This document shows positions 1,704-60,518 of a DNA stretch of 64,000 bases, piece by piece. The position numbers and the translations under genes were made by a program. Numbering within the stretch: position 1 is the first letter of the stretch; each line of letters begins with the position of its first letter. Source of the stretch: Microbacteriaceae bacterium (GTDB lineage Bacteria; Actinomycetota; Actinomycetes; Actinomycetales; Microbacteriaceae). The stretch spans positions 279,038 through 343,037 of the forward strand of contig JAIYCT010000002.1 in the NCBI GenBank assembly GCA_027487865.1, read 5' to 3'. A model generated the notes under the pieces. That model saw nothing but the letters and a program-made list of their open reading frames with translations. It was not told the DNA's origin and made no database searches.

Positions 1704-1710
1704 GGGTAAA

Positions 1711-1716
1711 AGCGTA
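1711..1716 (-). promoter_or_regulatory. Candidate leaderless -10 (TACGCT) of the copC-like gene
   Basis: TACGCT ends 7 nt before the ATG at 1703 on the minus strand, with no Shine-Dalgarno sequence between. It fits the TAnnnT-plus-6/7-nt layout seen at other genes in the window. The position is seen; promoter activity is inferred. Confidence 0.45.
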
Positions 1717-1727
1717 AGGCAGGTTTA

Positions 1728-3098
1728 ATGAAGCAGGCCCTTTATGGGATTTCCGGTGGCTTGGTAGCCGGGCTACTCTTTTTGTCAATTTTGTTTTTGG
1801 GACCGCTGTCGAACCGCCAGGACGCAGCGCCAGTTGAATCGCAGGCTGCAACCGTCTCTGCCGTTGCCACAAGTTCTGCCGTTGCAACCGAAAGCGCAAC
1901 TGTTAGCGCTGTGGTTTCACAGTCCTGCAGCGTCAAGGAGTTTTTAGAAGCTGACGGCATTTTGGATCTGCAGGCTCAGGTGGTGGATGTTTCAACCTCC
2001 GCTGTGTTGCTTGATGTGAACTCCAAGGTCGGCGCTAGAACTGCGTCGGTGCTAAAGCTGGTTACCGCTGCCGCAGCGCTGGAAACCCTTGGACCTAACT
2101 ATGTGGTCACCACCCGGGTTTATGTCGACTCTCTAGACCCAAGCATTTTGTATGTGGTTGGTGCAGGTGACGTCACTCTTTCTAGGACAGATGTGACAAG
2201 CCAAAGCGTCTATAAAAACGCTCCCAAGCTTGCAACTCTCATTCGTCAAATCACTAAGGCACTGCCTGGTCAAACCTTCAGCCAAATTGTCGTAGACAGT
2301 TCGCTCTACGGTGCCAAAAATGGCGACTGGAAGAACGATTGGGACAAGAAGGGCATTGCCGAGGGCTACATGTCCAGAGTCTCTGCGCTGCAGATCGATG
2401 GTGACCGAAACAACCCTGCCGGGAAGGACTCTGCTCGCGGTAGCGATCCGGTTGCTAGAGCAGGTAAGTGGTTTAGGGAAGCGCTTGGGGCGGCAGGAAC
2501 TAAAGCGGTTGTGGTAAATGGAATTGCTCCTACCACTGCACGGGAAATTGCCAAGGTCACATCTCGGCCGATCAAGGAGTGGATCGACTACATGCTCGTG
2601 GTCTCCGACAACACCTTGGCAGAAGCACTTGCGCGCTTGGTTGCCATCGACACTGGATTCGGAACCAGCTTTGCCTCGCTTGATGGGGCATACAAGCTTG
2701 CTTTGAAGAACACCGGCTTGGACCTTAGCTCCCTCAGAATCGAAGATGGTTCAGGACTATCGGATTACAACGCGGCATCGCCTGCGCTGATCAACTCGCT
2801 GCTGGGACTGATTCAGGCCGGCTATGGCGATTTCGAAGTAATCAAGGACGGTATGCCGGTGGCAGGAACACCCGGTTCACTCTCGTATCGTCTTGAGGAT
2901 GCCGCTGGAAAGATCACCGCCAAGACCGGCTGGATTCAAACCGGATACACCTTGGCTGGGTTTATGCAAACCCCAGACGGTGGCAACCTGCTGTTCACCA
3001 TCTACAACCTGGGCAAGGTAACAGAGGCAAATCGCGAAGCAATGGATGATCTAGCAATGGGCATCTATAACTGCGGAACGCTATTGGGTAATCAGTAG
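1728..3098 (+). CDS. dacB: D-alanyl-D-alanine carboxypeptidase/endopeptidase (PBP4, peptidase S13)
   Basis: This 456-aa protein has an N-terminal membrane helix or uncleaved signal (about residues 8-26). A low-complexity Ala/Val/Ser/Thr linker (about 38-66) follows, then the S13 penicillin-binding domain. All three active-site motifs are present: SVLK at 107-110 (nucleophile Ser107, Lys110), SDN at 293-295 and KTG at 399-401. The enzyme trims or cleaves D-Ala cross-links in peptidoglycan outside the membrane. pncA follows after 2 nt, so the pair is co-transcribed. Length is normal for actinobacterial PBP4. The linker is rich in repeated codons for AVAT/TVSAV-type runs. Confidence 0.92.
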   Translation: MKQALYGISGGLVAGLLFLSILFLGPLSNRQDAAPVESQAATVSAVATSSAVATESATVSAVVSQSCSVKEFLEADGILDLQAQVVDVSTSAVLLDVNSKVGARTASVLKLVTAAAALETLGPNYVVTTRVYVDSLDPSILYVVGAGDVTLSRTDVTSQSVYKNAPKLATLIRQITKALPGQTFSQIVVDSSLYGAKNGDWKNDWDKKGIAEGYMSRVSALQIDGDRNNPAGKDSARGSDPVARAGKWFREALGAAGTKAVVVNGIAPTTAREIAKVTSRPIKEWIDYMLVVSDNTLAEALARLVAIDTGFGTSFASLDGAYKLALKNTGLDLSSLRIEDGSGLSDYNAASPALINSLLGLIQAGYGDFEVIKDGMPVAGTPGSLSYRLEDAAGKITAKTGWIQTGYTLAGFMQTPDGGNLLFTIYNLGKVTEANREAMDDLAMGIYNCGTLLGNQ

Positions 3099-3100
3099 CA

Positions 3101-3685
3101 ATGTCTAAGGCTCTGTTCGTTATTGATGTGCAGAACGACTTTTGCGAGGGTGGTGCTTTGGCCTGCCTGGGTGGCGCTCAAGTTGCAGGCAGTATCACCA
3201 ACTATCTCAGGGGTAACAAATCCCAATACGACATTGTGATTGCATCCCGGGATTGGCACACGCCAAATAGTGCCAACGGCGGTCATTTTCCAGCAGCCGG
3301 TACTGACCCGGATTTTGTGAACACCTGGCCGCTGCACTGCATTGCCGGCACCCCCGGTGCCGAATATCATCCGAATCTAGATCTTTCGCTGATAGACAGC
3401 CACATCAAAAAAGGTCAGGATCAGCCTGGCTACTCCATCTTTGAGGGCGTCACGGATGCTGACGAAAAGATTCAGGACTTGCTCACTCGCTTGAGGATTA
3501 CCGAGGTTGATGTGGTTGGCATTGCAACCGACTACTGCGTTCGAGCCTCTTCACTTGATGCCAAGAAGTTCGGTTTGGATGTTCGGGTGATTACCTCTTT
3601 GACCGCCGGCGTATCGGCAGGATCCACTGAGGCTGCGATTGATGAGCTGGTTGATGCTGGCGTTGCAGTTGCGGCAACTGTTTAG
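3101..3685 (+). CDS. pncA: Nicotinamidase (isochorismatase family)
   Basis: This 194-aa hydrolase converts nicotinamide to nicotinate for NAD salvage. The N-terminal FVIDVQNDF carries the catalytic Asp. DWHTPNSANGGHF supplies the metal-binding Asp and His residues. HIKKGQ carries the catalytic Lys, and GIATDYCVRASS carries the nucleophilic Cys. The metal-site and K/C motifs separate PncA from other cysteine hydrolases. It starts 2 nt after dacB and overlaps the end of galK tail-to-tail by 4 nt. Confidence 0.93.
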   Translation: MSKALFVIDVQNDFCEGGALACLGGAQVAGSITNYLRGNKSQYDIVIASRDWHTPNSANGGHFPAAGTDPDFVNTWPLHCIAGTPGAEYHPNLDLSLIDSHIKKGQDQPGYSIFEGVTDADEKIQDLLTRLRITEVDVVGIATDYCVRASSLDAKKFGLDVRVITSLTAGVSAGSTEAAIDELVDAGVAVAATV

Positions 3686-4821
3686 AGCTCTCGCTTAGCA
3701 CCTTCAGATGGGGTCACAGAGAATACCCTTGGCGCTTTGAATCCAGCCTTTGCAAAAGCCAGCTCGCAGTTGTTTGCAAGTTCCGCAAGCTTGTCTTTGT
3801 GGATGATCGCAATTGCTGCCCCACCAAAGCCACCTCCGGTCATGCGAGCACCGATTGCGCCGGTTGCCATTGCAGTCTCAACCGCTAGGTCCAACTCGGC
3901 AACCGAGATTTCAAAGTCATCCCGCATCGAGGCGTGGGATTCCAAAAGCAATCTGCCCAAAGACGCAAGGTGGCCTTCGCGCAGCGCAATTAGAGTGTCG
4001 AGCACTCTTTGGTTCTCGGTGATGATGTGACGCACTCGCCTGAAGGTTTCGTCGTCAAGCTGGGATTGAGCTCTTGGGAGATCAGAGAGCGAGAGTTCTC
4101 GAAGCGATGAAACTCCAAGTTCCTTGGCACCAACTTCGCAGGAGGTTCTTCTTGAACCATAACCACCGTGAGCATGTGAGTGGGAGACCTGGGTGTCGAT
4201 CACCGCAACCACTAGGTCGTGCTTACTGAGTCCTAGGTCAACCACTGTGATTTCCAAACTTTGGCAGTCAATTAAGACAGCGGCATCGTTTTGAGCCATC
4301 ATCGAAGCGGTTTGGTCCATGATGCCGGTTGGGGCACCAACGACCTGGTTCTCAGCCTGCTGGCCAATAAGTGCGAGCTCTTTGCGGCTAAGTCCTGCAC
4401 CCCAAAGTTCATTTAGCGCGCTCGCCATGGAGCTTTCGATTGCGGCAGAGGAGGAGAGCCCTGCACCAATTGGCACATCTGAGGTGATGTAGCAATCAAA
4501 ACCAGATGTTGCCTTATCTCTCATTACCCATGCGACGCCAAGAGGGTAAAGCGCCCAGTCCAATCCGGTTGGCTTTGGGTCATCGAGTGAAATCTCATAG
4601 ACCCTGCTGTCAATTTCACTCACCACTTTGCAGATGCGATCAGTGCGCAAGGACACCGCCGCATAGGTGCGGAAGTTGATGCCAAAGGGAAGCACGAAAC
4701 CATTGTTGTAATCGGTGTGTTCGCCAATTAGGTTAGCTCTTCCTGGAGCAGACCAAACACCGGTTGGTGCGTAGCCAAAACTTGATAGAAATCCCGCTTG
4801 GGCATTTGCAGTTAGATTCAC
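3682..4821 (-). CDS. galK: Galactokinase
   Basis: This 379-aa GHMP kinase phosphorylates alpha-D-galactose at C1 (Leloir pathway, cytoplasm). The galactokinase signature GRANLIGEHTDYNN is at 27-40, the phosphate-binding PIGAGLSSSAA at 117-127, catalytic Asp169 in GAPTGIMDQTAS, and the C-terminal GGGFGG motif is present. Its start overlaps the end of galT by 4 nt, so the two are translationally coupled. UDP-galactose 4-epimerase (galE) is not in this window. Confidence 0.96.
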   Translation of the reverse strand: MNLTANAQAGFLSSFGYAPTGVWSAPGRANLIGEHTDYNNGFVLPFGINFRTYAAVSLRTDRICKVVSEIDSRVYEISLDDPKPTGLDWALYPLGVAWVMRDKATSGFDCYITSDVPIGAGLSSSAAIESSMASALNELWGAGLSRKELALIGQQAENQVVGAPTGIMDQTASMMAQNDAAVLIDCQSLEITVVDLGLSKHDLVVAVIDTQVSHSHAHGGYGSRRTSCEVGAKELGVSSLRELSLSDLPRAQSQLDDETFRRVRHIITENQRVLDTLIALREGHLASLGRLLLESHASMRDDFEISVAELDLAVETAMATGAIGARMTGGGFGGAAIAIIHKDKLAELANNCELAFAKAGFKAPRVFSVTPSEGAKREL

Positions 4822-5897
4822 TGCATTACCTCACGGAGCCTTTGAGCCGTTGCCTCCGGAGTCACATCTCCCACCCAAGCGCCCATGGCTGCCTCGGAAC
4901 CGGCTAGATACTTCAACTTGTCTGCAGCTCGACGAGGAGAAGTGATTTGCAGCATCAGGCGGAACTGGTTCCGCTTCTCCACCTTCGGGGCCTGGTGCCA
5001 TGCGGCTATGTAGGGAGTAGGGGAGTCGTAGATCTTGTCGACAGCCTGTAGCAGCGTCTTGTAGAAACCTGCCAAATCGGCAATCTCGTATTCATTTAGC
5101 TCAGAGAAATCCGGCACTGCTCGCTTTGGCAGTGCGTGAATCTCAATTGGCCACCGAGCTGCAAATGGCACGAAAGCGATGAAGTGCTCGCTCTCGAGAA
5201 TCACCCTCTCACCTTCGGATTCAAAGTCGTAGAGGTCCTGGAAAAAGTTAGGGCCGTAGCTTTCGATGGCAGCCAAAAGCTGCTTGGTCTTAGGGGTGAC
5301 AAAGGGGTAGCTGTAGATCTGACCGTGCGGGTGGTGGAGGGTGACTCCAATTTCCTGACCGCGGTTTTCGAATGGGAACACCTGCACCACACCCGGCTGG
5401 TTGTAGAGATCGCGAGTGCGATCACTCCAAGCTCGAATCACAGTTTCGATTCGGCTCACCGGCATCGATCCCAGGCTTCCCTCATGCTGGGGGCTAAAGA
5501 CCACAACTTCGCAGCGACCAAAAGCGGTGGTGGAAAATCCAAAGGGCTGATCTCCAGCTGGAGTAATTTCACCGGTCTCAGGACCAAAGGCTGGACCCTT
5601 ATTTTCAAAGACCGCAACATCGAAGTTGTCAGGTAGCTCAGAGAGGTTAGTAGCTGTTGTTGGGCACAGCGGGCAGATGTTTGCCGGAGGTAAAAATGCT
5701 CGAGTCTGCCGGTGACTGGCAACGGTGATGTAGTCGCCGGTTAGCGCATCAAACCTAAGTTCTGCGGTCTGTGGTCGAGATTCTTTTTCTCTTTGATCAG
5801 CCTTGCGAATGGGTGGCAGCGATGACCCCTGGTCGTCAAAATAGTAGAGGTCACGGCCATCGAAAAGCTTCGCTTCGATTCGCTCTCTGGCACTCAA
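4818..5897 (-). CDS. galT: Galactose-1-phosphate uridylyltransferase
   Basis: This 359-aa HIT-superfamily enzyme exchanges UMP between UDP-glucose and galactose-1-phosphate. The active site HPHGQ is at 189-193 and a zinc-type CPLC at 75-78. Translation starts at TTG 5897, supported by AGGAG about 6 nt upstream. It is the first gene of the galT-galK operon and is divergent from araA across a 211-bp gap. A pair of -10-like sequences (TATCCT, TATAGAT) lies 20-35 nt upstream of the start. Confidence 0.95.
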   Translation of the reverse strand: MSARERIEAKLFDGRDLYYFDDQGSSLPPIRKADQREKESRPQTAELRFDALTGDYITVASHRQTRAFLPPANICPLCPTTATNLSELPDNFDVAVFENKGPAFGPETGEITPAGDQPFGFSTTAFGRCEVVVFSPQHEGSLGSMPVSRIETVIRAWSDRTRDLYNQPGVVQVFPFENRGQEIGVTLHHPHGQIYSYPFVTPKTKQLLAAIESYGPNFFQDLYDFESEGERVILESEHFIAFVPFAARWPIEIHALPKRAVPDFSELNEYEIADLAGFYKTLLQAVDKIYDSPTPYIAAWHQAPKVEKRNQFRLMLQITSPRRAADKLKYLAGSEAAMGAWVGDVTPEATAQRLREVMQ

Positions 5898-7610: not shown

Positions 7611-8474
7611 ATGGCTAATCCCACCCACACCCTCACCCATGGCGATGCCGAAGCGGTAATCAACTTGGTTGGCTCGGCGCTGGTGGGATTGCGTTTTGGA
7701 AATCACATAGTGATTCCAGAGCTAAACCTCGAGCCTAAAACTTATGCTGGCAGCCTCTTGGCACCTTGGCCTAACCGTATCGCCCAGGGTCGCTACGTAT
7801 TTGAGGGCAATCAGTATCAGCTTGAGGTTCGAGATGGTCTGGGAAATGCGATGCACGGCTTGGTTGATGAGGCGACCTTCGAGATAATCGAGACCAGAGC
7901 CGGTTTTCTAAAACTTTCCACCAAGGTTGAAGCTTCTACTGGTTACCCTTGGAACTTGCTCGTGGAGGCCAGCTTCGAGCTAACTGCAGATGAATTAGTC
8001 ATTAGCTACTTTGTGACCAATGTGGGATCTGGCAATGCACCCGTTGGCATTGGCACACACCCCTACTTCCCATTTAGTGATGACACCACCATTGAGGTAA
8101 ACGCCGATACCGCTTCTGTTCACGGCTCCGACATGCTTCCGGTTTCGCAGACCCCGGCAGCCGAGATTGGATTGGGTTCGGGCAATGCCGTTTTGGCGAG
8201 GGAGTTTCAGTTGGACACTCAATTCACCTCGGTTACCAATCCGGTGGTAACCTTGAAAACCGGCGATCACGCGCTTGATATCTGGCATGACAATGCCCCC
8301 TGGCTGATGATTTACACAACAAATAAGTTTCCATGGGCGGATGGTCCTGGTAACGCAATTGCCATCGAGCCGCAAACCTGTCCGGCGGATGCCTTCAACA
8401 CCGGGGAAGACTTGCGGATTCTTGCCAGTGGCGAATCGACTTGGATGCGCTTTGGCCTAAAGCATCGAGGCTAA
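7611..8474 (+). CDS. galM: Aldose 1-epimerase (mutarotase)
   Basis: This 287-aa member of the galactose mutarotase-like fold interconverts alpha and beta anomers of free sugars. NAMHGLV, GIGTHPYFPF (catalytic His) and AIEPQTCPADAFN (catalytic Glu) are the expected family blocks. It sits 2 nt after araA and so is part of the arabinose operon. An arabinose-specific role, supplying the anomer used by AraA, is inferred from position; a role with the adjacent gal genes is equally possible. Confidence 0.9.
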   Translation: MANPTHTLTHGDAEAVINLVGSALVGLRFGNHIVIPELNLEPKTYAGSLLAPWPNRIAQGRYVFEGNQYQLEVRDGLGNAMHGLVDEATFEIIETRAGFLKLSTKVEASTGYPWNLLVEASFELTADELVISYFVTNVGSGNAPVGIGTHPYFPFSDDTTIEVNADTASVHGSDMLPVSQTPAAEIGLGSGNAVLAREFQLDTQFTSVTNPVVTLKTGDHALDIWHDNAPWLMIYTTNKFPWADGPGNAIAIEPQTCPADAFNTGEDLRILASGESTWMRFGLKHRG

Positions 8475-28562: not shown

Positions 28563-28568
28563 TACAAT
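28563..28568 (+). promoter_or_regulatory. Candidate leaderless -10 (TACAAT) of the LysE/ArgO gene
   Basis: TACAAT ends exactly 6 nt before ATG 28575 and no ribosome site intervenes. This is one of the better -10 matches of the set. Confidence 0.6.
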
Positions 28569-28574: not shown

Positions 28575-29174
28575 ATGTTCGCATCAGTTGCCGGCTTCTT
28601 CACCGGCCTTTCCTTGATCATCGCCATCGGTGCACAAAATGCCTATGTGCTCAGGCTTGGATTGATGCGTCACCATGTGTTTGCAGTGGTGCTTTTTTGT
28701 GCGGTCTCAGATGCAGTTTTGATCATTGCGGGAGTTGCGGGCTTAGGTGCTTTAATCCAACAACTTCCCTTACTTCTTGAAATCTTCCGATACGCAGGAG
28801 CTGCCTACCTTATTTGGTTCGGTATCGGTGCGGTTCGCAGAGCAATCAACCCGAAGACCCTTGAGGCTCAGGGTGAAGCGCTGCCGCTAATCAAAACCTT
28901 GGGCACCATGGCGGCCCTGACCTGGCTAAACCCCCATGTTTATCTAGACACCGTCATTCTCCTGGGCTCGATTGGAAACCAATTTCAGCCAAATCAGTGG
29001 TGGTTTGCCCTCGGTGGGGCTTTGGCCAGTTTCGTGTGGTTCTTTTCTCTAGGTTATGGAGCAAAGCTCTTGTCCCGTTTCATGTCCTCGGTTCGATTCT
29101 GGCAGGTGCTGGATGTCGCTATCGCGGCGGTTATGTTCAGCATCGCGGGAACACTACTTTTTAGTTCGCTGTAA
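28575..29174 (+). CDS. LysE/ArgO-type basic amino acid exporter
   Basis: This 199-aa membrane protein carries GLSLIIAIGAQNAYVLRLGL, the signature of the LysE/ArgO subfamily (lysine/arginine export), distinct from the RhtB-type gene at 27464. TWLNPHVYLDTVILLGSIG is also typical. About six helices. No LysG/ArgP regulator is adjacent. Confidence 0.92.
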   Translation: MFASVAGFFTGLSLIIAIGAQNAYVLRLGLMRHHVFAVVLFCAVSDAVLIIAGVAGLGALIQQLPLLLEIFRYAGAAYLIWFGIGAVRRAINPKTLEAQGEALPLIKTLGTMAALTWLNPHVYLDTVILLGSIGNQFQPNQWWFALGGALASFVWFFSLGYGAKLLSRFMSSVRFWQVLDVAIAAVMFSIAGTLLFSSL

Positions 29175-29202: not shown

Positions 29203-29208
29203 CATAAT
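29203..29208 (+). promoter_or_regulatory. Candidate leaderless -10 (CATAAT) of the PatB-like gene
   Basis: CATAAT ends 6 nt before GTG 29215; TTTGAT lies upstream as a possible -35. No ribosome site is present. Confidence 0.55.
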
Positions 29209-29214: not shown

Positions 29215-30354
29215 GTGAACCCAGACAGTTTTGGCAATTTTGCGAATCGCTCCAGCTCAAAGTGGCGCAGGTTCCCTGAAGATGTTCTTCCAATGCACGT
29301 TGCAGAGATGGACTTTGATGTCGCGCCTGCAATTCGCGATCGAATCAAAGATCTAACTGACCGCTCTGACCTTGGTTACACCGGCCCAGTTCCAGAGGTT
29401 GCAAAGGCATTTGAGGCATTTGCGCTAGAGCGCTGGAGTTGGCAGATTGCACCTGAACAGCTAAAGCTTGCTACCGATGTTGGAGTTGCAGCAGTTGAGA
29501 TTTTGCGAGTGCTGACCAAGCCTGGCGACAAGGTCCTGCTCAACAGCCCAGTCTACTCAAGTTTCTACCACTGGATCGAAGAGGTTCACGCCGAGGTGTC
29601 GGATGTTCCTTTGGTGCTCAAGGGTGATGATTGGGTGCTAGATATCGCAGGTATCGAGAGCGCATTTAAGGACGGCGTCAAGGTTTACCTGCTTTGCTCG
29701 CCGCAGAACCCGGTGGGCCGAGTCCACACCGCCAAGGAACTTACCGAGATTGCCGAATTGGCAGACAGGTACGGCGTAACCGTGGTCAGCGACGAGATTC
29801 ACGCGCCACTTAGCTGGGTGCCGTTTACCCCATACCTTGCGCTAGGACCCGCTGCCCAGCACACCGGCGTGACCATTAGCTCGAGTTCAAAGGCTTGGAA
29901 TGTTGCCGGCCTAAAGGCCGCCTTTTATATCACGCAAGGTCCTGAAGTTCAGGCCAGACTTAGGGCAATCCCAGAGGCTTTGCACTGGCGCACCTCGCTG
30001 ATTGGTGCCTTTGCGATGGAGAGTGCCTACTCGGACTCTGTGCAGTGGCTGGACGATACTGTCGAGCAGATCCAAGAGAACCTGGCCTTCTTCCAGCACG
30101 AGGTCGCACAAAAGCTACCAAAGGCAAAGCTTTTCAACATGGAGAGCACCTATTTGGTGTGGGTCGATCTAGCCGGCTACAAAGTAGATAAAGTCCAGCA
30201 TGTGCTTTTGCAACAGGCCAAGGTGGCGGTGGTGCCGGGTAACGATCATGCCCCTGAAGATCAATACTCGAACTTCATTCGATTCAACATCGCAACCTCA
30301 AAAGCCAGAATCAGTGAGGCCATCTCGAGAATCTCAAAGGTTCTCGAGGGCTAA
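29215..30354 (+). CDS. MalY/PatB-family PLP enzyme (probable cystathionine beta-lyase)
   Basis: This 379-aa fold-type I aminotransferase-like protein has the MalY/PatB start FPEDVLPMHVAEMDF, YSSFYHWI, and SSSSKAWNVAGLKAAF with the PLP-binding Lys. MalY/PatB proteins have C-S lyase activity toward cystathionine. GTG start with no ribosome site, so probably leaderless. The SprT gene follows 9 nt later. Confidence 0.88.
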   Translation: MNPDSFGNFANRSSSKWRRFPEDVLPMHVAEMDFDVAPAIRDRIKDLTDRSDLGYTGPVPEVAKAFEAFALERWSWQIAPEQLKLATDVGVAAVEILRVLTKPGDKVLLNSPVYSSFYHWIEEVHAEVSDVPLVLKGDDWVLDIAGIESAFKDGVKVYLLCSPQNPVGRVHTAKELTEIAELADRYGVTVVSDEIHAPLSWVPFTPYLALGPAAQHTGVTISSSSKAWNVAGLKAAFYITQGPEVQARLRAIPEALHWRTSLIGAFAMESAYSDSVQWLDDTVEQIQENLAFFQHEVAQKLPKAKLFNMESTYLVWVDLAGYKVDKVQHVLLQQAKVAVVPGNDHAPEDQYSNFIRFNIATSKARISEAISRISKVLEG

Positions 30355-30357
30355 TCT
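30352..30357 (+). promoter_or_regulatory. Candidate leaderless -10 (TAATCT) of the SprT-like gene
   Basis: TAATCT ends 6 nt before GTG 30364 and contains the stop codon of the preceding gene. This would give the SprT-like gene its own leaderless transcript. Confidence 0.5.
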
Positions 30358-30363: not shown

Positions 30364-30804
30364 GTGTTTGACCAGGTAAATCAGTTAGCCCAGCAGCTGT
30401 TTCAGCAGCATGGGCTGGTCAACTATTCGTTTGGATTCGATAGGGCAATTCGTCGAGCCGGGCTGTGCAACTACTCACAAAAGCGCATCACCATCTCAAG
30501 GCACCTAGTTGAAGCTGGAGACATGCATGTGGTGGAGCAGGTTTTGCTTCATGAGATTGCCCACGCCCTAACCGGACAGGCAGCTGGTCACGGCAAGATC
30601 TGGAAGGCGAAGGCTAGCGAGCTGGGCTACCTTCACCAAAGAATCGATGGCACACCACTTGCCAAGCAGGTCGCGAAATACAAAGGTGTTTGCCCCGGTG
30701 GCCACGAGCACTTTCGTTCACGGCAACCAGCAAGAATGCTCAGTTGCAAACTCTGCGCCCCGAGTTTTTCTCGCCGCTATCTAATTAGCTGGAGCGAAAA
30801 CTAA
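30364..30804 (+). CDS. SprT-like zinc metallopeptidase domain protein
   Basis: This 146-aa protein has the zinc motif HEIAHALTG (HExxH) and, further on, GHGKIWKAKASELG supplying the third ligand region, as in SprT/SPRTN domains. A C-terminal Cys pair region (MLSCKLCAPSF) suggests a small zinc ribbon. Bacterial SprT-like proteins are poorly characterised; the eukaryotic relative cleaves DNA-protein crosslinks. It overlaps crtEb tail-to-tail by 4 nt. Confidence 0.85.
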   Translation: MFDQVNQLAQQLFQQHGLVNYSFGFDRAIRRAGLCNYSQKRITISRHLVEAGDMHVVEQVLLHEIAHALTGQAAGHGKIWKAKASELGYLHQRIDGTPLAKQVAKYKGVCPGGHEHFRSRQPARMLSCKLCAPSFSRRYLISWSEN

Positions 30805-31655: not shown

Positions 31656-31951
31656 TTCTTCCTTCCCAATAGTTCCCAGGTGAGTGGAATCAATACCAAT
31701 CCAACAAGTGTGTAAGAGAAGTCCTCAATCGGTGCGACTCCTAGTTTTACACCTGATATCAGAGCTTCGTCATAGCCAACTATGCCAAACAGGATGATTA
31801 AGTTATCAAACACCAATGTCATCACGAGCGTGAGAATGGCCGCCAGTCCAAGGGCTCTGAGGTTAAGGCGCTTTCTAAAAAGCAGCGCTAGAACACCGAA
31901 GAACAAAACCGGTGGGAGCGCAATCGCGAGGTAGCTCAACTCTTGCGCCAT
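31652..31951 (-). CDS. crtYf: Lycopene/C50 carotenoid cyclase subunit
   Basis: This 99-aa protein has three hydrophobic helices and the lycopene-cyclase-domain C-terminal motif APIEDFSYTLVGL. It is one half of the heterodimeric cyclase found in Gram-positive C50 pathways; the other half is encoded immediately upstream with a 16-nt overlap. Position after CrtYe and before CrtEb matches the Corynebacterium order. Confidence 0.9.
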   Translation of the reverse strand: MAQELSYLAIALPPVLFFGVLALLFRKRLNLRALGLAAILTLVMTLVFDNLIILFGIVGYDEALISGVKLGVAPIEDFSYTLVGLVLIPLTWELLGRKK

Positions 31952-33803: not shown

Positions 33804-34693
33804 GGCTTTGCTCCTAAGAATGATTTGATAACCAGCGACAACTTCTTGAAGTTGCCAACGCTGATACGTGTCTCAATCAACTTGGTGGCTTCGGTATTTC
33901 CAATTTTGTGGTTTAGCTCGGTAAATAAAAGCTGCGCTGCGGTAACTGCGGCCCTGGCGGATTTTGGAAGAAGCGGCAGTGACTGAGCACTTAGCTTGAG
34001 GTCCTGGTTGATATCCGCCACCAGGCGGGCCTTGGTTTGCTCGTCGAAGTTTGAGACGTTGACGTTTGGGAAGTAGCTGCGGCCAAGTCTCTTGAAATCT
34101 GCACTTAGGTCTCTAAGAAAGTTCACCTTTTGAAATGCGGAACCTAGGGCTCTAGCTCCCTTGACCAGGGTAATTTTCTCTTCTTTGGAGTAGGAGCCTC
34201 CGTGCACAAATGCCGCCAGGCACATCAAGCCAACTACCTCGGCGGAGCCATAAACGTAGGTGTCAAAAGTCTCTTGGGTGTGTTCGGTCTCGGTTAGGTC
34301 CTGGCGCATCGAGTAGAAAAAGGGCTCCACGATGTCCTTGCTGATTCCAACCTCGCGGGCTGTTACGGCGAAGGCGTGAATGATCAGGTTCGTGCTAAAT
34401 CCAAGTCGCATTGCGCGGTAGGTTTCCTGCTCAAATGCATTGAGCTCTACTTCCGGATCTATTTCCGGTGCGCTTAGTGCTGCATCCGCGGCAGAGCCAT
34501 CGACAATCTCATCTGCGACGCGTACCAGGGCGTAAATGTTCTCGACGTGGTGCCTGATGTCTTTGGATAAAAGTCTGGTTGCCATACCGAACGAGGTCGA
34601 GTAGCTGTAAATGACCTCTTTGCTGGCGCGATGCGCTGCCTGCGAGTAGAGGGTTAGCCCGGTCGGGACCTTTGTCGTATCTTGGCTTTCCAC
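33800..34693 (-). CDS. crtB: Phytoene synthase
   Basis: This 297-aa squalene/phytoene synthase-like enzyme condenses two GGPP. Asp-rich sites are VADEIVDG and NFLRDLSADFKRLGRSYF. The GTG start at 34693 follows TAGCCT by 6 nt, so the mRNA is probably leaderless. It is the first gene of crtB-crtI-crtYe-crtYf-crtEb. GGPP synthase (crtE) is not in the window. The start lies only 38 bp from divergent ilvD. Confidence 0.94.
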   Translation of the reverse strand: MESQDTTKVPTGLTLYSQAAHRASKEVIYSYSTSFGMATRLLSKDIRHHVENIYALVRVADEIVDGSAADAALSAPEIDPEVELNAFEQETYRAMRLGFSTNLIIHAFAVTAREVGISKDIVEPFFYSMRQDLTETEHTQETFDTYVYGSAEVVGLMCLAAFVHGGSYSKEEKITLVKGARALGSAFQKVNFLRDLSADFKRLGRSYFPNVNVSNFDEQTKARLVADINQDLKLSAQSLPLLPKSARAAVTAAQLLFTELNHKIGNTEATKLIETRISVGNFKKLSLVIKSFLGAKP

Positions 34694-34699: not shown

Positions 34700-34705
34700 A
34701 GGCTA
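34700..34705 (-). promoter_or_regulatory. Candidate leaderless -10 (TAGCCT) of the crt operon
   Basis: TAGCCT on the minus strand ends 6 nt before GTG 34693. It faces the ilvD -10 at 34720-34725, 14 bp away. Confidence 0.6.
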
Positions 34706-34719: not shown

Positions 34720-34725
34720 TAGGAT
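34720..34725 (+). promoter_or_regulatory. Candidate leaderless -10 (TAGGAT) of ilvD
   Basis: TAGGAT ends 6 nt before ATG 34732; the intervening TGAACA is not a ribosome site. Confidence 0.6.
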
Positions 34726-34731: not shown

Positions 34732-36423
34732 ATGCCTAGCTCGATGAAACCCCGCTCCTTTGCTGTTACCGATGGTCTAGAGAGAGCCGCTGCTCGCGGC
34801 ATGCTCCGCGCGGTCGGAATGGGCGATGAAGACTGGGAAAAGCCACAGATTGGTGTTGCCTCGTCTTGGAACGAAGTCACTCCCTGCAACCTTTCGCTTG
34901 ATCGATTAGCAGATGCCGCCAAGATGGGCGTGCACGCAGCCAAGGGTTACCCGTTGGAATTTGGCACCATCTCGGTTTCCGACGGAATTTCCATGGGACA
35001 CGAGGGCATGCACTTTTCGCTAGTTTCTCGCGAGGTAATCGCAGATTCGGTTGAGACCGTGATGCAGGCTGAGCGTCTGGACGGATCTGTGCTTTTGGCT
35101 GGTTGCGATAAGTCGCTGCCGGGCATGATGATGGCTGCCGCTCGTTTGGATTTGGCTTCCGTATTTCTATACGCAGGTTCGATTGCACCGGGCTGGGTCA
35201 AGCTTTCTGACGGAACTGAGAAGCAGGTCACCATTATTGACGCCTTCGAGGCGGTTGGTGCATGCAAGGCCGGCAAGATGAGTCTTGAGGATGTTGACCG
35301 CATTGAGCGTGCAATTTGCCCAGGCGAAGGCGCTTGTGGCGGTATGTACACCGCTAACACCATGGCCTCAATTGGTGAGGCGCTAGGCCTAAGCCTTCCA
35401 GGCTCTGCATCCCCACCATCTGCCGACCGTCGCCGCGATGCTTGGGCACACCGCTCGGGTGAAGCAGTTGTGAACCTAATTGCAAAGGGCATCACCGCTC
35501 GCATGATTTTGACCAAGAAGGCTTTCGAGAATGCAATTGCGGTTCTTATGGCTTTTGGTGGTTCCACCAACGCTGTACTACACCTACTTGCAATTGCTCG
35601 CGAGGCCGAGGTGGACCTTCAGCTTTCGGACTTCAACCGCATCGCTGACAAGGTTCCGCACCTTGGAGATCTCAAGCCTTTTGGTCAGTACGTAATGAAC
35701 GACGTGGACCGCGTTGGCGGAGTACCGGTAGTAATGAAGGCGCTTTTGGATGCAGGACTCATTCACGGAGACTGCCTGACCGTTACCGGCAAGACCGTTG
35801 CCGAGAACCTTGCGGATATCAACCCACCTGACCCAGACGGCAAGATCATTCGTGCCATGGACAACCCAATTCACAAAGACGGTGGCATCGCTGTGCTGCA
35901 CGGAAGCATCGCTCCAGATGGAGCGGTCGTGAAGACCGCTGGCTTCGACCTTGCCTTCTTCGAAGGCCCGGCTCGCGTTTTTGAGCGTGAGGGCGCAGCC
36001 ATGGAGGCACTGTCTCGCGGCGAGATTAAGTCTGGCGACGTAGTGGTTATTCGCTACGAGGGCCCTAAGGGTGGCCCGGGTATGCGCGAGATGCTTGCTA
36101 TTACCGGTGCGATTAAGGGTGCCGGTTTAGGTAAAGATGTCCTACTATTGACGGACGGACGATTCTCGGGCGGCACAACCGGCCTATGTATCGGACACAT
36201 TGCACCAGAGGCCACCGACGGTGGACCTATTTCCCTGGTGCGTGATGGAGACCTGATTCGGGTTGACATCAAAGCTCGTTCGCTTGACTTACTGGTCGAC
36301 GATGAAGAGTTGGCTCGCCGAAAGACTGACTGGCAGCCGCTGCCACCGCGTTACACCCGCGGTGTTCTCGCTAAGTACTCCAAGCTCGTGCACTCCGCCG
36401 CAGAAGGCGCTTACTGCGGTTAG
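34732..36423 (+). CDS. ilvD: Dihydroxy-acid dehydratase
   Basis: This 563-aa Fe-S dehydratase is third in the valine/isoleucine pathway. GCDKSLPGM and [14 protein letters not shown] carry cluster cysteines, and [13 protein letters not shown] and [18 protein letters not shown] are conserved ILVD/EDD signatures. First gene of ilvD-ilvB-ilvN-ilvC. No attenuator or leader peptide can fit in the 38-bp upstream gap. Confidence 0.97.
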
Positions 36424-48621: not shown

Positions 48622-49860
48622 TTATCCGCGCCAGCGTCTTGAGAAGCTGGTTGCCACCACGATAAACACCACTGGAATCAGTGCCGCTGCGTTTAGCCCA
48701 CCGAAGGTGTAGAGCAGCAAGATGGTGCCCGATACCGCGCCACCAAATGCTCCCGATAGGTTCATTAGAGAATCGCTAAAGCCCTGCACCTTGGTCTTCT
48801 CATCAGTTGGCAGCACCTCGGTCAGTAGTGCACTGCCGGCAACTGTTGCGGCTGACCAGCCAAGCCCCAAAAGGAATAGGCCGACTATCACCATTTCAAA
48901 GTTGTTCTGGCCAAGACCTGCAATAGCGATGGCTGCAAAGAAGATGAATTGCCCGAGCACAATGGTTCTTACCGAGCCAATTCGATCAGCGAGCATTCCG
49001 AATACCGGAGCAAACGCATACATGCCAGCGATGTGCAGTGAGATGGTTAGGCCAACGTCTGAAAGTGAATGGCCGCCAGCACTCAGATGTGCCGGGGTCA
49101 TGCTCATCACCGACACCATGACCATGTGGCTGAGGGCAATAGTCAGAACCGCATAGCCAGCCATCGGGCGTTCGCGAATCACCTCAATGGCTGCCCTCAA
49201 GCCTGGGTTTACTCGTCTCGCAGGAAGCCCCGCAATTTCCTTGGCAATCAAAAGCGGATCGGGTCTTAGGCCAAACCAGAAAATCAAGGTCGAGGTTAGC
49301 TGGGCAACAATCGTGAATAGGAAAGGCCCCGCTAAATGTGGCAGGCCTATTGCTAAGCCAAGGTTTTCTCCCGGGGCAATCAAGTTCGGCCCGACAACAG
49401 CGCCAATCGTTGTTGCCCAAACCACCAGTGAAAGGTCTTTGCCTCGAGGCCCTGATACCGGAATATCCGCCGCTGCGAATCTGGCTTGCAGTGAGACGGC
49501 GGAGCCTGCACCCAACAAAAACAGTGCGAGAAGTTCGATGGGGAAAGAGCGCAGCGATGCCGCCAAAATCATGGTCATTGCCCCTGTGATTGCTATCGCA
49601 GCGCCAGTTGCTAGGGCGACTCGACGTCCCAAGCGATAGGCCAAGTTGGCCAGCGGAATGGCGCTGGCTGCGCTTCCCAGGGTGCTCAAAGTTGCTGCTG
49701 CGCCAGCCCAGGCGGTGGTGCCGGAAAGCTCGACTGCCATTAGGGCACCTACAGACCAGGTGGCTCCTAGCCCAAAACCACCGAATGCCTGGCCTAATGC
49801 CAATACCTTTACGGTTCGCTTTTGAAGCCTAGAAAGCTGTTCTGGCTGATAGTTGCTCAT
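48622..49860 (-). CDS. Major facilitator superfamily transporter
   Basis: This 412-aa protein has about twelve hydrophobic helices. The loop 2-3 motif is LAYRLGRRVALATG, and its repeat in the second half is GMLADRIGSVRTIVLG, both typical MFS signatures. The substrate cannot be assigned; drug/metabolite efflux is the commonest role for such actinobacterial members. It reads divergently from leuC and its ATG follows TAGGTT by 6 nt. Confidence 0.93.
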   Translation of the reverse strand: MSNYQPEQLSRLQKRTVKVLALGQAFGGFGLGATWSVGALMAVELSGTTAWAGAAATLSTLGSAASAIPLANLAYRLGRRVALATGAAIAITGAMTMILAASLRSFPIELLALFLLGAGSAVSLQARFAAADIPVSGPRGKDLSLVVWATTIGAVVGPNLIAPGENLGLAIGLPHLAGPFLFTIVAQLTSTLIFWFGLRPDPLLIAKEIAGLPARRVNPGLRAAIEVIRERPMAGYAVLTIALSHMVMVSVMSMTPAHLSAGGHSLSDVGLTISLHIAGMYAFAPVFGMLADRIGSVRTIVLGQFIFFAAIAIAGLGQNNFEMVIVGLFLLGLGWSAATVAGSALLTEVLPTDEKTKVQGFSDSLMNLSGAFGGAVSGTILLLYTFGGLNAAALIPVVFIVVATSFSRRWRG

Positions 49861-49866: not shown

Positions 49867-49872
49867 AACCTA
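49867..49872 (-). promoter_or_regulatory. Candidate leaderless -10 (TAGGTT) of the MFS gene
   Basis: TAGGTT ends 6 nt before ATG 49860 on the minus strand; the intervening TAGGTA is not a good ribosome site. Confidence 0.55.
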
Positions 49873-56077: not shown

Positions 56078-56517
56078 TTGGTAATCTCCGTGCAGACTTT
56101 GGTCGCTGGGATCTTTGAAACCGCGCTCGCTAGCGCCTCAAGAGCCGAAACCCCACTTGCCATATTCGAGTCAACAATTACCTCAACCGCAGGGTTTCTG
56201 GCGAAGCTGATAAACCGATAGTTCGGGGCTTTTGAGTCATCAACCAACCAGTCCACTCCAGCTGCGCTCACGCAGCTCAACTGTGAAACCTCAACGAGCT
56301 CAAGCCCACACCTTGCGATGATTGCGGCCGGTTCACCCCAGGCCGATGTGGCCTGGGCATTGGTGAAGCGCTGTGCAAGCTCCCCAATCGATGCAGGGTA
56401 GCGAACCGAAACCTCCGCACACGCAGGGTCATTTGCCATGGCTGCCGGCTCTAGGTTCACGGTTGCGGCACAGCCGCTAAGTAGCGGAATTAGCAGTAGA
56501 AGCAGAAGTTTTCGCAT
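56074..56517 (-). CDS. DUF3515-family lipoprotein
   Basis: ATG 56517 gives 147 aa with a short lipoprotein signal (RKLLLLLLIPLLSGC, Cys at about 16). The mature domain has scattered cysteines (PACAEVSV, RCGLELVEVSQLSC) and matches DUF3515, an actinobacterial family found next to ddl and thiL. Function unknown. A TAGCCT 7 nt upstream suggests a leaderless mRNA. Confidence 0.85.
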   Translation of the reverse strand: MRKLLLLLLIPLLSGCAATVNLEPAAMANDPACAEVSVRYPASIGELAQRFTNAQATSAWGEPAAIIARCGLELVEVSQLSCVSAAGVDWLVDDSKAPNYRFISFARNPAVEVIVDSNMASGVSALEALASAVSKIPATKVCTEITN

Positions 56518-56524: not shown

Positions 56525-56530
56525 AGGCTA
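56525..56530 (-). promoter_or_regulatory. Candidate leaderless -10 (TAGCCT) of the DUF3515 gene
   Basis: It ends 7 nt before ATG 56517 and overlaps the thiL -10 on the other strand by 2 bp. Confidence 0.6.
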
Positions 56531-56534
56531 GCGT
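56529..56534 (+). promoter_or_regulatory. Candidate leaderless -10 (TAGCGT) of thiL
   Basis: It ends 6 nt before GTG 56541. It shares TA (56529-56530) with the opposing -10, centred on palindromic GCTAGC. Confidence 0.6.
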
Positions 56535-56540: not shown

Positions 56541-57536
56541 GTGAATTATTCAGGCCCAACCGTATTTGAACTAGGCGAAGTTGCCGCACTCAAGCTTGCT
56601 GTGAAGAACTTTCGCAAGGTGGAGACAACCTTGGTTGGTTCCGGCGATGACGCTGCGGTAGTGGCAGTTAGCGATGGCCGCTTTGTGGTTACCACCGACA
56701 CCATGGTTGAGGGTCACGACTTTAGAAACGACTTCTCATCCGGCTACGACCTCGGGTTCAAAGCGGTAGCCAGCAACGTCGCAGATGTCGCCGCTATGGG
56801 AGCCAAGCCCATCGCGCTTGTTGTCGCGATGGTGATCCCTAAGAACACGACCCAGATGTGGTTGGAAGATTTTGCTCGCGGATTACAGTCCGGTTGCAAC
56901 CAGCTTGCGCCAGAGTGCGAGATTGTCGGGGGAGATCTAGCTTCCGGTGAGCAAATTGTGATTGCTGTGACTGCACACGGCCATCTCGCGGGTGCTAATC
57001 CGGTATTGCGCTCAGGTGCCAAACCGGGCGACAAAGTCGCTCTAGCCGGCACCTTGGGTCGTGCTGCGTGTGGCTTGGACCTTTTGCTACACCAAGATAA
57101 GTCGCTAGCCAAGGCTTATGACGAGTGGGTTGCGGTGCAGCTTCGCCCAACTCCACCGATTGAACTTGGAGCATTGGCCGCTAAGAGCGCAACAGCGATG
57201 CTGGATGTCTCGGATTCACTGGCTTTGGACTGCAACCGCTTGGCTGAGGCATCCGATGTATCAATCGAGCTGGACCGCACCAAGTTGGAGGGCTACGCAG
57301 CCGTTCTGGAGCTGGCCGCGCAATCTATGGACGCCCGAGACGACTTAGTTCGAGACCCAATGGATTGGGTGCTCTACGGCGGAGAAGATCACGCACTTTT
57401 GGCAACCTTCCCCAAAGACTCTGAGATCCCAAGGGGCTTCAAGGTAATTGGTGAGGTTGTAAAGCGCCAAAAGGATGCGGTAACTCTCGGGGGAGTTGTT
57501 TTGCAGGCGCGCGGTTGGGACTCGGTTAGTTCCTAG
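56541..57536 (+). CDS. thiL: Thiamine-monophosphate kinase
   Basis: 331 aa, AIRS/PurM-like fold. [21 protein letters not shown] and the DTMVEGHDF segment bind metal and phosphate, and [12 protein letters not shown] is a family hallmark. It converts thiamine monophosphate to thiamine diphosphate, the cofactor needed by IlvB among others. GTG start without a ribosome site. It ends 4 nt into the dapD end (convergent). Confidence 0.95.
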
Positions 57537-58483
57537 GCGTGTAATTCGCTGTTTAGCTCAATACCCTGACCCTCGCGGGCGATTGCCTCAACGGCTCCGG
57601 TTTGAGAGTTCCTTCTAAATAGCAGCCCCGGAAGCCCACTGAGTTCTGCAGCCTTTACGACCTGGCTTCTGCCGTCAACCTTCAGGGTCACCTTGGTGCC
57701 CGCGGTGATGTAAAGACCTGCCTCCACGGTGGAATCGTCGCCAATCGAAATACCCACACCGGAGTTAGCTCCAAGTAGCGCGCGCTTGCCGATTGAAACC
57801 TTGTGCTTTCCGCCACCGGAGAGGGTTCCCATGATCGATGCGCCACCACCAATGTCAGAGCCATCGCCAACCACAACACCCTGTGAGATGCGGCCCTCGA
57901 CCATGGAGGTTCCCAGGGTTCCGGCGTTGAAGTTCACAAAACCCTCGTGCATAACAGTTGTGCCGGGGGAGAGGTGGGCACCAAGGCGGACCCGATTGGC
58001 ATCGGCAATGCGGACCTTCTTAGGAACCACGTAGTCAATCAGTCTTGGAAACTTATCGATCGAGTGAGCGACAACTCCGTGGTTGCGAAGGGTTACAGTC
58101 TTGGCTTCAAAATCTTCGAGGGTCATCACACCGCGATTGGTAAATGCCACAATCGGAAGGTTTGGGATTAGGCCCTCAAGGTTGATGGTGTTTGGCTGCA
58201 CCAACAGGTGAGAAAGGAGTTGAAGACGTAGGTAGGCATCCTGGGTTGAGGTGACCGGATTGGAAAGTTCGATCTCCACGCGAATAACTTCGGTTCTCAC
58301 GTTGCGCAATTCGTCAACGCCAACCAGCTCGTCAAGTTCTCTTGGTGAAAACCACTGCAGGTCTGACTTCGGCGCTTCGCCAACGGCTGGTTCTGGGAAC
58401 CAGGCGTCCAAGACGGTGCCATCTTGGGCAATGGTTGCCAATCCGTGGCCCCAGGCCTTATCAGTTAGGTATGTCGCGCTCAT
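57533..58483 (-). CDS. dapD: Tetrahydrodipicolinate N-succinyltransferase (actinobacterial type)
   Basis: ATG 58483 gives 316 aa, the usual length, starting [18 protein letters not shown]. The C-terminal half is a left-handed hexapeptide-repeat domain ([29 protein letters not shown]). It succinylates tetrahydrodipicolinate on the way to DAP and lysine. It is divergent from dapE, the later step of the same branch, across 30 bp. Confidence 0.95.
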
Positions 58484-58490
58484 CCTCACC

Positions 58491-58496
58491 AGAATA
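58491..58496 (-). promoter_or_regulatory. Candidate -10 (TATTCT) of dapD
   Basis: It ends 7 nt before ATG 58483; the intervening GGTGAGG also looks like a ribosome site, so leaderless status is less certain here. Confidence 0.5.
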
Positions 58497-58500
58497 CAGG

Positions 58501-58506
58501 TAGCCT
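58501..58506 (+). promoter_or_regulatory. Candidate leaderless -10 (TAGCCT) of dapE
   Basis: It ends 7 nt before ATG 58514 and lies 4 bp from the opposing dapD -10. Confidence 0.55.
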
Positions 58507-58513
58507 TTTTGCC

Positions 58514-59584
58514 ATGGCACTTGATACTTCCAACCTTGTTGAGCTCACGATGGCGATTTGCGACATCGAATCGGTCTCCGGCAATGAGTCGGCGCTCGCC
58601 GATGAGGTTGAAAAGCTGCTTTCTTCTCGTGAGCACCTAAGCGTGGTTAGAGATGGAAACGCAGTTGTCGCCAGCACGAATCTTGGGCGTGAGTCCAGGG
58701 TTGTGATCGCAGGGCACCTAGATACCGTTCCGATCGCGAACAATCTTCCGACCAAGCTGCATCACTTTGAGCGCGAGCAGGTCATTGTTGGCCGCGGCAC
58801 GGTGGATATGAAGGCCGGCGTGGCTGTGATGCTGAAGCTTGCCGTTGAACTCACTGAACCAAAGTTTGATATCACGTGGGTGTTTTATGACAACGAAGAG
58901 GTTGCCAGTGACCTAAACGGTCTTGGCCGCCTAGTTCGCAACCGACCAGATATGATCCAGGGTGATTTTGCTGTGCTGTGTGAACCAACCAGCGCTCTGA
59001 TCGAGGGCGGGTGTAATGGCACCATTCGCATCGAGGTTTCAGCCACTGGCAAAAAGGCACACTCCGCAAGACCATGGATGGGCGAGAACGCAATCCACAA
59101 ACTCGCACCCATTCTCGAAAAGTTAGCTTCTTATCAGCCGGAAACGTTGAATGTCGACGGACTGGAATACCGCGAAAGCCTGAACGCAGTTTTGGCACAC
59201 GCTGGAATCGCCAGCAACGTAATTCCAGATCTGGCAACCCTTACGGTGAACTACCGCTTTGCTCCTTCTCGCTCCGGTGCGGAAGCAGAATCGCTGATGC
59301 GACAGTTTTTTGCAGGTTTTGAGGTGTCGGTTACTGACCTTGCCGTTGGCGCCAGACCGGGCCTGAACACCCCGCAGGCGCAGGCTTTTATTGCCGCACT
59401 CGGTTCAGAAGTAAAGCCAAAATATGGCTGGACGGACGTTGCGCGCTTTAGCGCTTTGGGAATCCCAGCGGTGAACTATGGACCGGGTGACCCATCTTTG
59501 GCTCACGCCGACAACGAAAACGTTCCAGTGGGGCATCTTTTTGACTGCGAAGCTGGTTTGCGAAGCTGGCTTAGCGGAAACTAA
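58514..59584 (+). CDS. dapE: Succinyl-diaminopimelate desuccinylase
   Basis: This 356-aa M20-family dizinc hydrolase has IAGHLDTVP and [10 protein letters not shown] (metal His/Asp), [12 protein letters not shown] (catalytic Glu) and a dimerisation lid domain around [14 protein letters not shown]. It releases succinate from N-succinyl-DAP. Its pathway partner dapD is immediately divergent, so the pair shares one control region. Confidence 0.94.
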
Positions 59585-59649
59585 TTTGGCTTTCTAGCCG
59601 TGTTTCTGGGATAATTGTTGCTTCCGCGCAATACCCAGGAGTAGTTCTT

Positions 59650-59823
59650 ATGGCAGCAATGAAGCCTCGCACCGGAGACGGTCCAATGGAGGCAGAACGC
59701 GAACCACGCGGCCTAATCATCCTTCGAGTCCCACTTGAGGGTGGCGGACGCCTAGTCGTTTCTGTAAATGAAGCCGAAGCAACTGAACTTCACAAAGTTC
59801 TAGCCGGCGCAATAAAGAAGTAG
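59650..59823 (+). CDS. DUF3117-family small protein
   Basis: This 57-aa protein starts MAAMKPRTGDGPMEA, continues RGLIILRVPLEGGGRLVV and ends AGAIKK. This is the highly conserved actinobacterial DUF3117 pattern, usually found between dapE and an O-methyltransferase, as here. CAGGAG precedes ATG 59650. Function unknown. Confidence 0.93.
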   Translation: MAAMKPRTGDGPMEAEREPRGLIILRVPLEGGGRLVVSVNEAEATELHKVLAGAIKK

Positions 59824-60453
59824 CTATTCGGCTTTTGCGATAAGCAGCAAGCCGTCTCCAACCATGGAGATGCTTGAGAAAAAACCAGTCACGTTTGAAA
59901 ATGATTTGATTGTCGCGCGCAATGCCGATGTCTCATCATCACGAAGAGTTGGGTTGGGGACGCGATCCCGCCACAGCGCGTGAGAGATAACCAAAGCACC
60001 ACCCGGTCGAATCAAGCCAACCGCAGTCGGAAGAAGTTCTTCTACCTCTAATGGATCGATGTCCAAAAACACCAGGTCGTAGCCGCTCTCGGCCATGTTT
60101 CCCATGACCGCCTTGGCCTTGCCGGTGATAACTCGAATCCGGCTGGCAGGAATATCTGCAGCCGCAAAGTTCTTGCGAGCAACATTTTGGTATTCCGGCT
60201 CATTGTCAATTGTGGTGAGGATCGAATCCTTTGAGGCACTGAGAAGCCAAAGTCCAGAGACACCAGCTCCTGTGCCGGCCTCAACAATGTTCTTGGCTTT
60301 CGAGATGGCAGCTAGAACTGCTAGCTGAGCTCCTGAGGCTGGGGTGATTGACTCGACTCCGAGTTGGTCGGCATGGTGCCTAGCTTCAGCAATCGCAGCG
60401 GGTTCGACGGCATAGTCTTCGGCGAATTTCCAGCTCGATATTTTGTCAATCAT
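59824..60453 (-). CDS. O-methyltransferase family protein
   Basis: ATG 60453 gives 209 aa (ATG 60468 would add five residues). Class I SAM-dependent methyltransferase of the COMT-like family 3: AKNIVEAGTGAGVSGLWLL binds SAM, TIDNEPEYQ is the acidic loop, and YDLVFLDIDPLEVEELLP holds the metal/catalytic Asp. Substrate unknown. It ends directly against the DUF3117 gene (convergent). TATGCT 10 nt upstream suggests a very short leader. Confidence 0.9.
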   Translation of the reverse strand: MIDKISSWKFAEDYAVEPAAIAEARHHADQLGVESITPASGAQLAVLAAISKAKNIVEAGTGAGVSGLWLLSASKDSILTTIDNEPEYQNVARKNFAAADIPASRIRVITGKAKAVMGNMAESGYDLVFLDIDPLEVEELLPTAVGLIRPGGALVISHALWRDRVPNPTLRDDETSALRATIKSFSNVTGFFSSISMVGDGLLLIAKAE

Positions 60454-60506
60454 GATGTCTCTAAGCATAGGTAGGTATTGCCTGCAAAGCCCGGATTCGA
60501 AAGCAG

Positions 60507-60512
60507 TAAACT
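60507..60512 (+). promoter_or_regulatory. Candidate leaderless -10 (TAAACT) of tatB
   Basis: TAAACT ends 6 nt before ATG 60519; the CAAAGG between could act as a weak ribosome site if transcription starts further upstream. Confidence 0.5.
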
Positions 60513-60518
60513 CAAAGG

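Follow-up and report, generated by a model that had tools for sequence, protein, structure and literature searches.

Many genes in a 64,000-nt stretch of a Microbacteriaceae bacterium genome (GCA_027487865.1, contig JAIYCT010000002.1, positions 279,038 to 343,037; hereafter the window) carry a hexamer of the form TAnnnT that ends 6 or 7 nt before the start codon. The key observation is that this hexamer occurs well above chance at the heads of transcription units, and that in some divergent gene pairs the two facing hexamers lie side by side, share a TA or coincide in a single palindrome. The element, its spacing, its conservation and its sharing are read directly from the DNA. The reading that we favour, with a probability of about 0.92, is that the hexamers would be the -10 elements of leaderless promoters of about 12 bp, and that divergent pairs have been packed until these elements touch, share a TA or merge.

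Leaderless genes are by themselves ordinary for an actinobacterium, and their presence in Actinobacteria is already in print: Zheng et al. (2011; PMC3160421) reported TANNNT about 12 bp before starts, and for 86 of 89 genomes of Actinobacteria gave leaderless genes an average share of 19.2%. Leaderless mRNAs have been shown by RNA mapping in M. tuberculosis (PMC3898074) and C. glutamicum (PMC3890552).

A hexamer ahead of unit-leading starts

The window belongs to a small freshwater-type actinobacterium with an Aquiluna-type genome (1.465 Mb in 13 contigs; G+C content 53.5% in the part read). Statistics were drawn from the window and 360 kb of the same genome (424 kb, later extended by 2 kb), together 29% of its length. 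Our own codon-pair score was used for gene calling and gave 397 genes that cover 93% of the sample; we left out genes that lay at a block edge, as well as starts closer than 60–70 nt to a block end. Unit-leading starts are those with a divergent upstream neighbour or with one at a distance above 25 nt (n = 229 in 424 kb). Genus-level gene counts come from samples of 400–424 kb from each of four congeners, three larger genomes were used for comparison, and all gene-level counts refer to samples of genomes rather than whole genomes. Start codons serve throughout as a proxy for transcription start sites (TSSs).

The first-pass annotation had proposed a leaderless-mRNA architecture, for which a genome-wide excess of TAnnnT at 6–7 nt was set beforehand as a test. 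Over the part of the genome sampled that excess is present: 40 of 229 unit-leading starts match, while 200 dinucleotide shuffles gave a mean of 6.5 (SD 2.3, maximum 13), and the window by itself has 8 matches in 38 such starts. With longest-ORF starts (ORF, open reading frame) there are 45 matches against 7.0 in shuffles. At the 130 starts of this genome that have a divergent neighbour, TAnnnT was found in 22 cases at spacer 6 and in 10 at spacer 7, compared with about 2 per position elsewhere; for in-frame start codons within genes the figures are 11 (spacer 6) and 29 (spacer 7) of 6229. If any plausible start is allowed, 154 of 438 divergent starts in the genus match at spacer 6/7, against 16–31 at six control spacings. 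Matching starts concentrate at the heads of transcription units, and mainly at divergent ones: by context, the genus matches comprise 93/438 divergent starts, 40/425 far co-directional starts and 46/638 near co-directional starts.

It could be argued that such a signal arises from the choice of start, since a TAG or TAA at spacer 6 is in frame and taking the first start after a stop would place it just upstream; TAG does indeed make up 20 of the 29 spacer-6 matches. We rejected this explanation, to which we attach a negligible probability. TAGnnT peaks (20 against 1.5 per position), whereas TAGnnV, which differs in the sixth base, does not (2 against 3.0) and neither does TGAnnT (2 against 1.0). 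Counts are likewise raised at spacer 7, where the triplet lies out of frame, and hexamer and spacer are conserved between species. With both stop-codon controls flat and spacer 7 raised, longest-ORF choice is not the cause.

The matching starts also differ from other starts in ways expected of leaderless mRNAs. A Shine–Dalgarno (SD) sequence, scored as GGAG, GAGG or AGGA within the SD zone, precedes 0/40 matches and 61/189 non-matches (Fisher P = 1.8e-6), which bears out the earlier remark that this spacing is not seen in genes whose ribosome sites are good; in the four congeners the counts are 7/179 and 464/1322. TTG is used at 0/40 matches and 43/189 non-matches in the window's genome (P = 0.0002). 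Some of these TTG codons will be miscalled starts; when matches are set against starts bearing an SD and no match, the counts are 0/179 and 80/464 in the congeners, and 0/115 and 15/353 in the three larger genomes. An mRNA that starts at the codon should begin with a purine, so the absence of TTG is expected. TANNNT 10–12 bp before the start codon at a frequency above chance, the lack of an SD, the use of ATG and GTG only, never TTG, and enrichment at the first genes of transcription units are the criteria by which actinobacterial leaderless genes are recognised. In these respects the genes resemble the "TA-led" leaderless genes of Actinobacteria and Deinococcus-Thermus (PMC3160421, PMC3898074, PMC3890552, PMC12340547), and C. 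glutamicum leaderless mRNAs have been reported to use AUG (about 79%) and GUG (about 21%) (PMC3890552).

Alternatively, the hexamers might be -10 elements from which transcription begins a few bases upstream or downstream of the codon, the leaders then being very short. Both spacers are present in the genus set (6 nt in 95 and 7 nt in 38 of 133), so that the start may shift by one base, and three dapD/dapE loci have a spacer of 8 before one gene. The absence of TTG is, in contrast, what would be expected if the first base of the codon were the initiating purine, and the distance from hexamer to codon is narrow; we consider very short leaders improbable. The base just before the start codon is most often C (33% in the window's genome, 38% in the genus and 60% in the larger genomes), and M. 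tuberculosis TSSs are reported to prefer C at -1 and T at +2 (PMC3898074). The consensus of the -10-like hexamers, TAG(A/G)CT, comes near to the palindrome TAGNCTA. No conserved -35 element was seen, the 36 nt before the hexamer never exceeding 0.12 bit in the genus set (n = 133), as is also described for M. tuberculosis promoters (PMC3898074). An Rfam search gave no riboswitch-type leader, finding only three tRNAs in the window and two more in seven other stretches.

The hexamers of the window and their conservation

The first-pass annotation listed twelve hexamers in the window. For comparison we listed each ATG, GTG or TTG that opens a frame of at least 60 aa and has TAnnnT ending 6 or 7 nt before it. 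This gave 20 entries, which include all eleven of its exact TAnnnT hexamers at the same sites and spacers. The twelfth, CATAAT, had been described as a near match, and as such falls outside an exact listing.

1711..1716, minus strand: TACGCT, 7 nt before a copC-type ATG (first base 1703); CopC domain found
28563..28568, plus strand: TACAAT, 6 nt before the ATG at 28575 of a LysE/ArgO-type exporter; LysE family found
29203..29208, plus strand: CATAAT (near match, the weakest of the twelve), 6 nt before the PatB-like GTG at 29215
30352..30357, plus strand: TAATCT, 6 nt before the SprT-like GTG at 30364
34700..34705, minus strand: TAGCCT, 6 nt before the crtB-type GTG at 34693
34720..34725, plus strand: TAGGAT, 6 nt before the ilvD ATG at 34732; back to back with crtB
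49867..49872, minus strand: TAGGTT, 6 nt before the ATG at 49860 of an MFS gene; MFS_1 found
56525..56530, minus strand: TAGCCT, 7 nt before the DUF3515 ATG at 56517; TA 56529–56530 in common with the thiL hexamer
56529..56534, plus strand: TAGCGT, 6 nt before the thiL GTG at 56541; TA 56529–56530 in common with the DUF3515 hexamer
58491..58496, minus strand: TATTCT, 7 nt before the dapD ATG at 58483; DapD_actino profile found
58501..58506, plus strand: TAGCCT, 7 nt before the dapE ATG at 58514; 4 nt from the dapD hexamer; dapE-gram_pos profile found
60507..60512, plus strand: TAAACT, 6 nt before the tatB ATG at 60519; sec-independent translocase profile found

Profile checks place the crtB product in the squalene/phytoene synthase family and identify thiL as thiamine-phosphate kinase and tatB as a TatB-type translocase; they also agree with the names IlvD, SprT-like and DUF3515. 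The PatB-like protein matches the PatB family profile below its curated cut-off. Residue 13 is where its alignment with the NCBIfam PatB profile begins, at profile position 11, which makes the start at 29215 plausible; coding potential by itself picked 29293.

Three divergent pairs in the window have hexamers on both sides. Those of crtB and ilvD are 14 nt apart, those of dapD and dapE 4 nt apart, and those of DUF3515 and thiL overlap in one TA. A fourth pair, in which the copC ATG faces the ATG of a D-Ala-D-Ala carboxypeptidase-type gene at 1728 with 24 nt between the start codons (1704–1727), has only an imperfect TAAGGC on the carboxypeptidase-type side, with spacer 7 and its TA in common with the copC hexamer. 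It is possibly a degenerate member of the shared-TA class.

These arrangements are conserved. In the genomes of the same genus that were read, window included, TAnnnT stands 6 nt before crtB in 20/20 and 6 or 7 nt before ilvD in 20/20. Both DUF3515/thiL hexamers are present in 19/19, overlapping in one TA, with a contig-end fragment of thiL in one further genome (G021) left out of the count. In all 19 the DUF3515 and thiL start codons are 23 nt apart and the core GGCTAGCGTT is unchanged while the spacers drift, and the arrangement is kept in species with ThiL down to 55% identical.

For dapD and dapE a wider comparison was made using tblastn, which replaced an anchor-motif detection that had caught 2 of the 81 loci. 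Of the loci, 80 come from named records, mostly Micrococcales by title with a few bins labelled otherwise, and one from the window. The two genes face each other in 73/81, the remaining eight being left out (six without a dapD match and two with dapD on the same strand), and removal of three duplicates leaves 70 distinct regions. TAnnnT is found 6–7 nt before both genes in 67 of these 70, compared with 0–1 at nine control spacings. The distance from hexamer to codon is kept even though that between the two start codons ranges from 18 to 653 nt, where two distances of more than 600 nt may enclose another gene. In two other genomes the starts are 19 bp (L060) and 18 bp (L265) apart over a single TAGNCTA-type core, so that on this reading of the sequence the dapD/dapE pair itself attains the fully shared state.

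Nine further entries were listed in the window, two of which are called gene starts. TAAGTT (spacer 6) precedes an aldose-epimerase-type gene at 7611 and TAGGGT (spacer 7) a lycopene-cyclase-type gene at 31951; both are found within runs of closely spaced genes on one strand and could be internal promoters or chance matches.

Shared cores between divergent genes

In the four congeners 32 of 219 divergent pairs are leaderless-like on both sides, where control spacings give 0–2; some of these pairs are orthologous and not independent, and one in the window's genome (offset -14) is doubtful but counted. The hexamers overlap or lie at most 4 nt apart in 12 of the 32, compared with 0/19 in the three larger genomes. 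Eight of the divergent pairs sampled have an intergenic region of only 15–24 nt, two of them occurring twice by orthology or likeness. One divergent pair consists of an enoyl-CoA hydratase family gene and an enolase-like gene, probably menB and menC, with start codons 18 bp apart over TAGTCTA. In another pair, a PfkB-family kinase gene faces a protein that matches no Pfam family above the cut-off; the start codons are 23 bp apart, the TA is shared with a flank of 6 on each side, and reading of the loci showed this arrangement in 11 of 22 same-genus genomes. TAGGCTA also occurs with the 18-bp geometry at a second palindromic site in the window's genome (contig C10, 433878–433900; L268). The ORF that this site precedes is presumably dihydrodipicolinate synthase-like; the facing ORF has only 57 aa and is possibly not a true gene.

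A grid of flank lengths over 2.8 Mb was too sparse to prove quantised distances, and pattern counts over 199 Microbacteriaceae genomes from 85 genera took its place. The 18-bp palindrome arrangement (CAY, 5 nt, TAGNCTA, 5 nt, RTG) gave 71 matches (summed tables) in 57 genomes and 32 genera, while the same core at control flanks of 3 and 9 gave 3 and 4. The 23-bp arrangement over a shared CTAG gave 80 matches (summed tables) in 70 genomes and 49 genera, compared with 3 at a flank of 10; this counts a sequence pattern only, the adjacent genes having been read for the PfkB kinase pair within the genus. A looser 23-bp pattern, for which 11 of 24 forward matches are the PfkB kinase pair (G003 has the same core too), was not used as a family-wide count; ORFs of at least 60 aa lie on both sides in 12 of its 18 loci. 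The same holds for 22 of 30 excised 18-bp loci. A Pfam scan of both proteins at nine of these 22 found families on both sides in eight:

chorismate-binding enzyme and class IV aminotransferase
MsrA and aldo-keto reductase
DapD and DapE
polyprenyl synthetase and DUF3040
PdtaS-type kinase and hydrolase
M13 peptidase and MatE
HAD and glutaredoxin-like protein
the enoyl-CoA hydratase pair

The symmetrical cores could also be read as operators of a dimeric repressor, since both kinds of core, TAGNCTA and CTAG-centred, have complete or nearly complete palindromic symmetry, and many of the flanking genes are metabolic. However, the middle bases differ between loci while the T, the A and their spacing from each start codon remain constant, the same geometry occurs at unrelated gene pairs, and the half sites are identical to the genus -10 consensus. 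We regard an operator as slightly less probable still than very short leaders.

A shared -10 element agrees with what is described for E. coli, where 18 bp is the commonest distance between the divergent TSSs of a bidirectional promoter and 10 and 23 bp are frequent as well (PMC12825309); the 18-bp preference is attributed to the reciprocal pairing of positions -7 and -11 at that distance (PMC10268837). Our comparison covered the 18- and 23-bp classes. The cores described here have the same kind of symmetry as the symmetrical -10 promoters of the Grainger group at 18 and 23 bp, measured between start codons rather than TSSs. With start codons as TSS proxies, the -10-like elements overlap at the two preferred distances that mark bidirectional promoters, and 18 and 23 bp fit a shared bidirectional -10 element of which both products would be leaderless. 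Unlike the E. coli case, both products appear to be leaderless protein mRNAs, the promoter would be the whole intergenic region, and the geometry is set by two start codons and so can be read from DNA. In M. tuberculosis closely juxtaposed divergent promoters have been called a common feature, with leaderless starts at the prpD/Rv1129c pair; the text available to us mentions no shared -10 element or fixed start-codon distance (PMC3898074).

The mechanism that we propose is as follows. A promoter of only about 12 bp would allow divergent genes to be packed head to head, until facing -10 elements touch, share a TA (start codons 23–25 bp apart) or form one palindrome TAGNCTA (18 bp). Transcription would start at the codon and translation would be leaderless. 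Polymerase would bind the one element in either orientation, singly, and so fire one gene or the other, the mutual exclusion of the two directions being suggested by the E. coli work. At somewhat better than even odds, we further suggest a class of Microbacteriaceae divergent pairs in which a single symmetrical -10 would be the whole regulatory region, with both mRNAs leaderless, starts locked at 18 or 23 bp, only one of the two genes expressed at each firing, small asymmetries determining their expression, and, in streamlined genomes, stop codons serving as the -10 of the next gene. The difference from known leaderless genes would be one of degree only, in that a streamlined 1.47-Mb genome has its leaderless promoters crowded together head to head or laid over stop codons.

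In the papers cited here bidirectional-promoter geometry was taken from RNA maps. Because a leaderless start codon marks the TSS in the DNA, this geometry could be read from genomes across many genera, with conservation as a test. The pairs would show how small a working intergenic region may become, and would predict that linked genes are expressed either in a coupled or in an exclusive manner, for example dapD and dapE in the genome where their starts are 18 bp apart (L265). Gene callers should score TAnnnT at 6–7 nt. Our literature search, over the source portions available, found no description of divergent leaderless pairs with a shared -10 element or of stop codons as -10 elements, and none combining Aquiluna with leaderless; a mention in a 2021 paper on symmetry is possible. 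That paper, by Warman et al., reportedly concerns the symmetry of bidirectional promoters.

Several points weigh against our interpretation. Just 40 of 229 leading starts have a perfect TAnnnT at 6/7 nt, so most genes use other arrangements. The starts come from a home-made coding score rather than Prodigal and are not provable from DNA. In the window's genome three positions before the hexamer reach 0.13–0.26 bit (n = 40), which was not repeated in the genus set. Several of the same-genus genomes are near-identical to that of the window, and as orthologous pairs recur in related genomes the counts are inflated and the events not independent. Read backward, the 18-bp pattern gives 46 matches against 71 forward and the 23-bp pattern 14 against 80; with flanks of 3 and 9, too, backward reading yields tens of matches and is thus a poor control for composition, for which reason shifted flanks were relied on. 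Finally, long ORFs are confined to one side in 7 of the 30 palindrome loci and lacking on both in 1, and some two-sided loci may hold a spurious ORF, the minus strand of L240 having no Pfam family.

Stop codons and the hexamer of the next gene

In the window the TAA stop of the PatB-like ORF (29215–30354) provides the TA of the SprT-like hexamer TAATCT, across a gap of 9 nt. Of 35 co-directional gaps of 9–10 nt in the four congeners, 18 follow a stop codon of the form TARnnT, its TA being that of the -10-like hexamer at spacer 6/7. The corresponding counts are 1/29 for gaps of 6–8 nt, 5/36 for 11–15 nt and 121/795 for other stop codons; the value is somewhat high at a gap of 3 (7/21), and at a gap of 1 (5/6) the T of the start codon forces it. 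None of the 18 cases starts with TTG, compared with 5/17 in the rest, and an SD is present in 3, compared with 11/17. The SprT-like gene was missed by the gene caller and is outside these 18. One of the cases recurs in genome G011, where the downstream N-termini are near-identical. In the three larger genomes 2 of 13 stop codons are of this kind.

As a separate observation, the stop codon TAG is used by 164 of 397 genes in the window's genome, by 160/365 and 144/370 in G001 and G011, and by 74/354 in G022. A TAG frequency as high as that in the first three samples is unusual.

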